From positions 2,790,001-2,854,000 of the forward strand of contig CP017039.1 of NCBI GenBank assembly GCA_001717545.1: 64,000 nucleotides of DNA, in the 5' to 3' direction. The DNA is from Anaerolineaceae bacterium oral taxon 439 (GTDB taxonomy: Bacteria > Chloroflexota > Anaerolineae > Anaerolineales > Anaerolineaceae). Positions 41,256-42,597 of the stretch are shown here, in pieces. The stretch's first letter is position 1, and each line of letters begins with the position of its first letter. The notes under the pieces were generated by a model, which saw nothing but the letters and a program-made list of their open reading frames with translations, was not told where the DNA came from and ran no database searches. The position numbers and the translations under genes were made by a program.

Positions 41256-41457
41256 TCAGTATCTCTCCTATTGATTTCAACATATCGCCGGCCGCTCTGC
41301 GCGGCCCTGTACAAGATTGTCAGCATGGGCTTCGCTGCATCATCTTGCTCACAGATCAGTCAACCGCGCCCGTCTCGCCAGTGGAATTTTTGTCGCGCCC
41401 GGAGTTCGCCGGTTCTTGACCCGTGATTAATCTGATCCGGCATCTATCGGATCAAAC
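41256..41457 (-). promoter_or_regulatory. Structured leader of the ribosomal cluster
   Basis: About 200 untranslated bases separate the predicted start from rplC. GGCCGC/GCGGCC (41290-41306) is a compact hairpin. CAAGAT/ATCTTG (around 41312-41349) closes a longer, interrupted one. A leader of this length could bind a ribosomal protein for autoregulation. I recognise no described motif, and the fold is read by eye. Confidence 0.45.
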
Positions 41458-41463
41458 TGCTTC

Positions 41464-41472: not shown

Positions 41473-41525
41473 CAGCTTGTCCTGATTTCGTAAGGAAATA
41501 CGAATAAAAATGTGAGATCCGCCTG

Positions 41526-41546
41526 AAAAAAATCAGTCAGCTGATT
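41526..41546 (-). terminator. Intrinsic terminator of the ATPase/DUF4276 pair
   Basis: On the minus strand AATCAG-CTGA-CTGATT is followed by a run of T residues (plus-strand A at 41526-41532). It lies just after the DUF4276 stop and insulates the ribosomal promoter. Confidence 0.72.
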
Positions 41547-41558
41547 CAGGGAAACGAA

Positions 41559-41852
41559 TTACCCTGTCAGGGCTCTGATTTTTCCGACCCATGCGCGGAA
41601 ATGCGAACATTCCTGAAGAATTCGGTCGATTCCGATTCGTTCGGCTAAAACGATTCCATCCGCAACTTTTTTATACGCAGGGATCAGGGATTTTATTCGT
41701 TTCGAGGGCGCTGTATCGGGCGAATCGTCGATGAACTCCGGAGACGGATACGCGGTACGAATCGCCTGAATTCTTGAGACGGACGGAGAAAGAACCTGCT
41801 TTACAAACTGCTCTTCTGTTTGACCCTCGCAAAGGATATAAACGTTAACCAT
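41559..41852 (-). pseudogene. DUF4276 protein with internal deletion
   Basis: Only 97 residues remain, whereas DUF4276 proteins (TOPRIM-like, partners of AAA ATPases) usually have about 200 (family knowledge). The normal N-terminus is present (MVNVYILCEGQTEEQFVKQV). After residue about 25 the sequence jumps to the normal C-terminal part (DSPDTAPSKRIKSLIPAYKK and GIDRILQECSHFRAW). The join near 41770-41780 keeps the frame. The missing piece would contain most of the catalytic acidic residues. It may be dead, or a trimmed but functional variant. It lies one base after the ATPase gene. Confidence 0.75.
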
Positions 41853-41853
41853 A

Positions 41854-42510
41854 TCAAACGGGCTCAGCCGCAGGCCGGCCTCCGAGCAGGTTCATATTCC
41901 AAAGATCGCCCAGACTGTAATCGTCCTCCAGCCAGACTTTCAGAGATTCAGCAGGCAGACGCATCAACTCCGTCCCCCGTGAACCCCGGTTCGCGACAAT
42001 AACGTCTTCAGCGTCGAACTCATTTAACAGGTCGACCGATTGCGTCGATACGATAAGCTGAGAATCGACAGCCGCAGATTGGATCAGATCTGAATTATTT
42101 CCAACGCCAATATTCCACCTGGATTCAAAATTTCCCCTTGCGATTTCGCTTTGCCAGTCTGCATTATAATAATATCCGAAAAACTCCTTATTGAAGACAA
42201 GACGGTTATCATCCGTAGGAACTAATTCGAAACCGTATGAATTCAGTCCGAAAAAGGCTTCAAAAAAAATTTGATCCGTAACCTTTCTTCCTTCGTAAAA
42301 TAAGGAATTAACACCGCTTTGCGCTGCAAACAACTGAAGGCCCTTTGTCAAAACGCTTTGAAGAAACGAAAAAGCCGAAATAAAGTTGGATTTTCCCGAT
42401 CCGTTCGCCCCAATCAAAACGTTAATATTCTTTAATTCAAGGTCACATTCCCGAATGGACTTATATCCGGAAATTTTAATGCGGCTGAGTTGATCTCTCT
42501 GCAATACCAT
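41854..42510 (-). pseudogene. OLD/RloA-like AAA ATPase with internal deletion
   Basis: This 218-residue protein has a normal N-terminus with Walker A (GANGSGKSNFI, residues 34-44) and a normal C-terminus (QLIVSTQSVDLLNEF, then WLEDDYSLGDLWNMNLLGGR). Related AAA_21-type ATPases have about 350-400 residues (family knowledge). Everything expected between about residue 135 and the D-loop/H-like TQS segment is missing, including the ABC signature and Walker B. The join (near 42085-42105) is in frame. It is paired with DUF4276, as in RloAB-like defence systems, and is more A/T-rich than the flanking genes. Confidence 0.75.
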
Positions 42511-42519
42511 AAAGCTTCT

Positions 42520-42545
42520 TCTTTCAAAGCAGGAAAACCCTGCTT
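42520..42545 (-). repeat. Small hairpin upstream of the ATPase gene
   Basis: AAGCAGG pairs with CCTGCTT across an AAAAC loop. The segment matches 20 of 26 positions with 28796-28821 in the rpsM-rpsK spacer. It lies in the predicted 5' leader of the ATPase gene. Confidence 0.45.
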
Positions 42546-42575
42546 CAACACTGTTTTTACTTGTTGACCTTTTTC

Positions 42576-42584
42576 ATCATAACA
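42576..42584 (-). promoter_or_regulatory. Extended -10 promoter of the ATPase/DUF4276 pair
   Basis: On the minus strand TGTTATGAT resembles an extended -10 element, giving a leader of about 60 bases that includes the hairpin at 42520-42545. No clear -35 was found. Confidence 0.35.
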
Positions 42585-42597
42585 CAATAAACCCAAC

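Follow-up and report, generated by a model that had tools for sequence, protein, structure and literature searches.

Do two adjacent short genes that have kept the ends of an ATPase and of a DUF4276 protein form a pared-down module with a new role, or are they what is left of a longer system? The question arises from the 64,000-nt stretch of the Anaerolineaceae bacterium oral taxon 439 genome (CP017039.1) that we have analysed, hereafter the window, in which the pair occupies positions 41559-42510 of the minus strand; it lies upstream of rplC, with an M28 peptidase gene transcribed divergently from it. The two open reading frames described in the initial annotation are present, one of 218 aa for the ATPase (41854-42510, minus strand) and one of 97 aa for the DUF4276 protein (41559-41852, minus strand), both free of stops or frameshifts. 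Our analysis favours the second answer: the pair is very probably a horizontally acquired, HEC-01-type two-gene candidate defence system that was inactivated by two separate internal deletions.

The deletions were mapped by alignment and codon position against 24 ATPases and 22 DUF4276 proteins from the loci L020-L045. In the ATPase, 150-151 residues of its 24 full-length relatives are missing, with the join within a few codons of position 42087 and about 450 nt gone. The DUF4276 protein lacks 111-121 residues compared with its 22 relatives (119 or 120 in 19 of them), the join being near 41781 and the loss about 360 nt. Close relatives measure about 365 aa (ATPase) and 216 aa (DUF4276) and, in the set of 44 loci from named genomes, complete relatives mostly range from 359 to 386 aa and from 212 to 241 aa, respectively. 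The alignment with full-length homologues that had been proposed for this pair bore out an internal deletion in both genes: the relatives are longer, the missing stretches could be mapped in both proteins, and both joins keep the reading frame.

What remains of the ATPase is an N-terminal part (residues 1-141; 42088..42510, minus strand) with the P-loop GANGSGKS, 65% identical to residues 8-148 of its nearest relative, from Pyramidobacter (locus L020), and a C-terminal part (residues 142-218 plus the stop codon; 41854..42087, minus strand) with STQS and WLEDDYSLGDLW. The predicted jump from the P-loop to the TQS end was seen in the alignment, and the lost middle is where relatives carry SDGTLRF and VDEPELGLHP, which we take to be their ATPase signature and Walker B, respectively. 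The DUF4276 remnant likewise passes from its EGQTEE start to its TAPSKRI end, with an N-terminal part (residues 1-24; 41781..41852, minus strand) that retains CEGQTEE and a C-terminal part (residues 25-97 plus the stop codon; 41559..41780, minus strand) that retains TAPSKRI. The stretch lost in between is where relatives carry TTMFDYY and HEFEG; the HEFE motif and the strand that ends with the invariant Asp79 went with it. Of the invariant columns, about half belong to the lost stretches (40 of 79 in the ATPase and 20 of 41 in the DUF4276 protein). Since the ATPase signature and Walker B as well as the DUF4276 Asp strand and HEFE motif are gone, neither shortened protein should be catalytically active, as judged from the sequences and models. 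When the short ATPase was submitted to AlphaFold2, one of five models was fair (mean pLDDT of 78.5) and the other four scored 45.8-50.3.

We have modelled the intact DUF4276 relative of locus L020 (pLDDT of 90.2) to compare its fold with known structures. In Foldseek, an OLD C-terminal region ranked first with an E-value of 1.2e-03, none being below 0.001. VIA-align superposed the model on four OLD C-terminal regions with Z of 8.5-9.2 (rmsd of 4.5-4.7 over 174-176 residues), on GajA with Z of 7.0 and on the PARIS chain 8ux9_A with Z of 7.7, which falls below the value of 8 under which a match may reflect just a common arrangement; unrelated folds scored from 6.2 down. A search of the PDB with the sequence of the same protein gave no match below an E-value of 0.5. 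The fold and the order of motifs suggest that DUF4276 would be a Toprim nuclease. PMC12839542 describes OLD-type ABC ATPases as often linked with nucleases, and PMC10568477 places the ATPase and the Toprim of PARIS in separate genes. In PARIS, according to PMC12409363, the AriA hexamer prevents the Toprim nuclease AriB from acting before a phage trigger appears, and the triggered system is toxic to its own host.

By sequence family, the remnant pair is assigned to the candidate system HEC-01 of PADLOC-DB and not to PARIS. The ATPase matched PDLC04175 (HEC-01A) in two stretches with an E-value of 5.5e-63 and the DUF4276 gene matched PDLC04188 (HEC-01B), also in two stretches, with 5.7e-35; the two genes are adjacent and in the order seen in relatives, from which they differ by lacking the middle of both. 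Pfam recognised AAA_15/AAA_21 in the ATPase remnant and DUF4276 in its partner (82 bits, cut-off of 30.2), the best stretch aligning residues 23-92 with profile positions 119-191 of 192. Our literature search found no paper on DUF4276, and a single one was listed for HEC-01 in phage defence. Of the "RloAB/PARIS-like" label given to the pair at first, the part that stands is the arrangement shared with PARIS (AriA/AriB) and OLD, an ABC-type ATPase beside a probably Toprim-like partner, the model of its intact relative superposing best on the OLD Toprim region. A PARIS assignment by family does not: the AriA model matched only residues 8-53 of the ATPase remnant (1e-11), and AriB was absent from the six PADLOC families matched at E-values up to 1 by the DUF4276 remnant sequence. 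As regards RloAB, no Rlo-named family was seen among the matches listed, the ATPase list comprising the best 25 of 121 PADLOC families. The window pair differs from PARIS and OLD also in that the catalytic core is absent. We have adopted complete ATPase and effector cores as our own mark of a working system; both are incomplete in the window pair, of which no defence activity is expected.

By analogy to AriA and AriB in PARIS, infection would be sensed in the intact system by the ABC-type ATPase, which would restrain the DUF4276 Toprim nuclease or set it free. In the window, the signature motif and Walker B would have gone with the ATPase deletion, and the conserved-Asp strand and HEFE motif with that in the DUF4276 gene. 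Both deletions would be recent, so that the remainder of each gene would not be eroded so far, and the frame kept at both joins would be, on the simplest account, a coincidence. The argument that two in-frame losses in partner genes are unlikely by chance was overstated, the odds being 1 in 9 given two deletions.

The surroundings of the pair speak for its acquisition. Thirteen further genomes of the genus (80-98% complete) yielded no relative of the ATPase, and in the search covering the genus some ATPase match, mostly weak, was obtained in 12 of 61 genomes, its own included. In one of the congeneric genomes (G008), the rplC leader adjoins the M28 gene and the pair is absent; a blastn comparison of the window and G008 intergenic regions found 86 nt of the rplC leader in common at 80%. 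Another genome of the genus (G007) has, at the corresponding position before the leader (L076 1597-4168), genes for an XcyI-type restriction endonuclease, a DNA methylase and an ASCH protein, and the spot possibly takes up defence genes. The GC content of the pair is 0.456 vs. 0.562 for the window, a value as low or lower being found in 77 of 1261 overlapping windows of the size of the pair, its own included. Because the ATPase was not found in the 13 congeneric genomes, and the site in one of them is free of the pair, we consider that the pair was probably acquired, at a variable spot. The probably foreign segment, with limits set by eye, covers approximately 41480..42590 and is flanked by the rplC promoter/leader on one side and by the divergent M28 peptidase gene on the other.

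The source genome is a single contig, 99.89% complete. When it was searched with an intact DUF4276 relative, only the two remnant pieces matched at E-values up to 1. The intact ATPase relative gave 20 matches at E-values up to 0.1, two of them being the remnant and the remaining 18 (best 4.1e-5, 30% identity) being read as other ABC-type ATPases. A programmed rearrangement with displaced middles was rejected, the lost parts having no close match elsewhere in the genome. Mobile sources of the same short form were also considered: phages gave zero matches, the 14 pattern matches in viral contigs included no relative, and, among the plasmid matches listed, the 15 records with at least 80% coverage of the ATPase all span 1056-1101 bp, that is, the full spacing. 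Another 94 plasmid records match the ATPase in part only (89 of them not among the matches listed), and the DUF4276 search of plasmids gave C-terminal matches in 12 records.

The initial annotation had proposed a search for the same shortened pair in related genomes, and none was found by comparing the spacing of the ATPase ends. Both ends were matched in 78 of the 97 loci with a match, some of which overlap, and they lie there 121-197 residues wider apart than in the window ATPase. In the class, the ATPase was matched in 58 of 396 genomes (own included), with 40 end pairs in 40 genomes among the matches listed, 146-159 residues wider apart than in the window. The class search also returned 35 places with an unpaired ATPase end, seven of them in frames under 300 aa; of these seven only the G300 one was retrieved (L100, which a contig end truncates), and single-ended fragments thus fall outside the spacing comparison. 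In the class of L024, 4 of 391 genomes were matched, including that of the query. Among the compared loci with both ends matched, no other ATPase has the deletion of the window. In two Chlorobiaceae genomes (L055 4944-5219 and L056 1830-2105) we have observed only the last part of a HEC-01A-like ATPase (profile positions 276-368), followed by a weak P-loop match.

For the DUF4276 gene, both ends were matched in 40 of 72 loci and only L041 was shorter. Both genes are complete in 60 of 70 evaluable loci, a tally of loci with an ATPase match above 60 bits from which we set aside 3 loci truncated at a contig end, 7 duplicates and 10 relatives that were weak or partial. Of the ten remaining loci, three (L054, L097 and L102) have an ATPase without a neighbouring DUF4276 match, and two (L050 and L052) seem to be shorter or diverged, not broken. 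Frameshifts were seen in the DUF4276 gene of L029, beside a complete ATPase, and in the ATPase of L030, beside a complete DUF4276 gene. In L121, a HEC-01-like pair, both genes are split between frames near their starts. Two loci share with the window a HEC-01-type pair with a large DUF4276 deletion. In L040 (Lachnospiraceae), DUF4276 is gone up to about residue 140, start included, together with the last ATPase residues, and what remains is in a different frame from the ATPase; in L041 (Ruminococcus), DUF4276 residues 27-185 or so are lost and the two parts are in different frames. They differ from the window pair in their end points, in the loss of frame, and in an ATPase that is complete (L041) or changed only at its last residues (L040). 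Hence, of four deletion joins in all, the two in frame are both those of the window, which was chosen for that; four joins are too few, and therefore no excess over one in three is shown.

We have then compared the retained parts with those of the relatives, leaving L043-L045 out of the invariant-column test. The window pair keeps 59 of 64 invariant ATPase columns (five changed) and all 22 DUF4276 columns, and the same test applied to each other relative gave 0-9 and 0-3 changed columns, respectively. The five ATPase changes are the second highest count of 22 rows, and the mean identity of the window ATPase to the others, 0.57, is the lowest of 22. With a nearest relative 65% identical in protein, we compared rates through a tree instead of dN/dS, which is a weak test. 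For the retained parts of both genes joined, the root-to-tip length of 0.42 was the lowest of 22 (a rank that depends on midpoint rooting), but the terminal branch of 0.39 was the fifth longest of 22 and the ATPase identity was the lowest, so that the comparison shows neither relaxed nor strong constraint. In the retained parts there is no clear sign of relaxed selection or faster change, the test being weak either way.

The deletions are possibly young; alternatively, some constraint may persist. Under the latter reading, the short proteins would still bind each other, DNA or related subunits, and would regulate ATPase/Toprim systems or inhibit them in a dominant-negative manner. This would agree with the frame kept in both genes, with the conserved residues of the retained parts and with the persistence of the P-loop and the CEGQTEE motif. 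However, no other locus with both ends matched has the same ATPase deletion, the genome holds no close second copy on which the pair could act (a distant one may exist), the short ATPase was poor in four of five models, and both other DUF4276 deletions (L040 and L041) have lost the frame. A selected minimal pair of this kind is therefore very unlikely, and it is just as improbable that two catalytically dead proteins assemble into a working mini-module that inhibits or senses related ATPase/Toprim systems. The "minimal variant" and "dominant-negative" readings first offered for the pair found no support, there being no other such ATPase among the loci compared and L040 and L041 being out of frame. 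The damage looks young because the retained parts are well conserved without a clear rise in rate, a small chance of retained function remaining. Youth is preferred given that no second lineage was found to have the form, that the genome offers no close intact copy to be modulated, and that four of five ATPase models were poor.

A sub-case of decay, which we have weighed apart from the main explanation, is that the loss of the nuclease was selected first, as an escape from self-harm, and that the ATPase deletion came later under relaxed constraint. Such an order would be compatible with L040 and L041, which lost most of DUF4276 and kept a complete or nearly complete ATPase, with the frameshifted DUF4276 gene of L029 beside its complete ATPase, and with the host toxicity of triggered PARIS noted in PMC12409363. 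Yet the cases are few, L030 shows the opposite, and the order of events is unreadable from the window; we regard this sequence of losses as improbable. A fault in the assembly or consensus of the reference genome is more improbable still, considering the single-contig, nearly complete genome and that two clean internal deletions with open frames would be an unusual assembly error.

The pair is probably a recent, inactive remnant, and the reading as a coincidental wreck, also among those first offered, is supported by the deletions in two genes, by the lack of another ATPase of this form among the loci compared and by the G008 site without the pair. It would provide an example of a foreign defence pair apparently in early decay. 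Profile searches may call such remnants present, with strong HEC-01 scores in both genes despite the lost cores, and the three loci with most of DUF4276 deleted hint at a cost that may lie mainly in the nuclease half. The terminator said to be retained by the pair held up less well: one terminator-like site does exist (41561-41573), and it overlaps the end of the DUF4276 frame, in a region where shuffled sequences lead one to expect 1.7 such sites. Directly downstream lie an AT-rich hairpin and a T run, seen by eye only.

Beside the remnant pair, at 41312-41458 of the minus strand, we have observed a conserved and covarying structured RNA, the 5' leader of rplC, which is a better lead than the pair itself. 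Its structure has 41 pairs, with changes on both sides in 16 and with 96.2% of cells paired. The covariation score was 0.328, compared with 0.177 in shuffles (0 of 500 reached the observed value) and at most 0.094 when the structure was slid; the structure was derived from the same nine sequences that were scored, which favours it. Rfam has no family matching the leader stretch of the window, and five leader loci gave only two chance-level matches, both elsewhere; no paper on the rplC leader was found in our literature search. We propose it as a candidate uncatalogued ribosomal-protein leader. A covariance model of the leader gave exactly one match at E-values up to 0.001 in each of 106 of the 121 genomes of the family, the nine model sequences included. 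The rplC start motif, beginning about 50-125 nt after the leader, was found on the same strand in 19 of 20 fetched leader loci, the remaining locus being cut short. In a locus of the same family (L139, 1-2984), translations read by eye gave the order tuf, rpsJ, leader, rplC and rplD, from which the window differs in that the remnant pair and the M28 gene, and not tuf-rpsJ, precede the leader.
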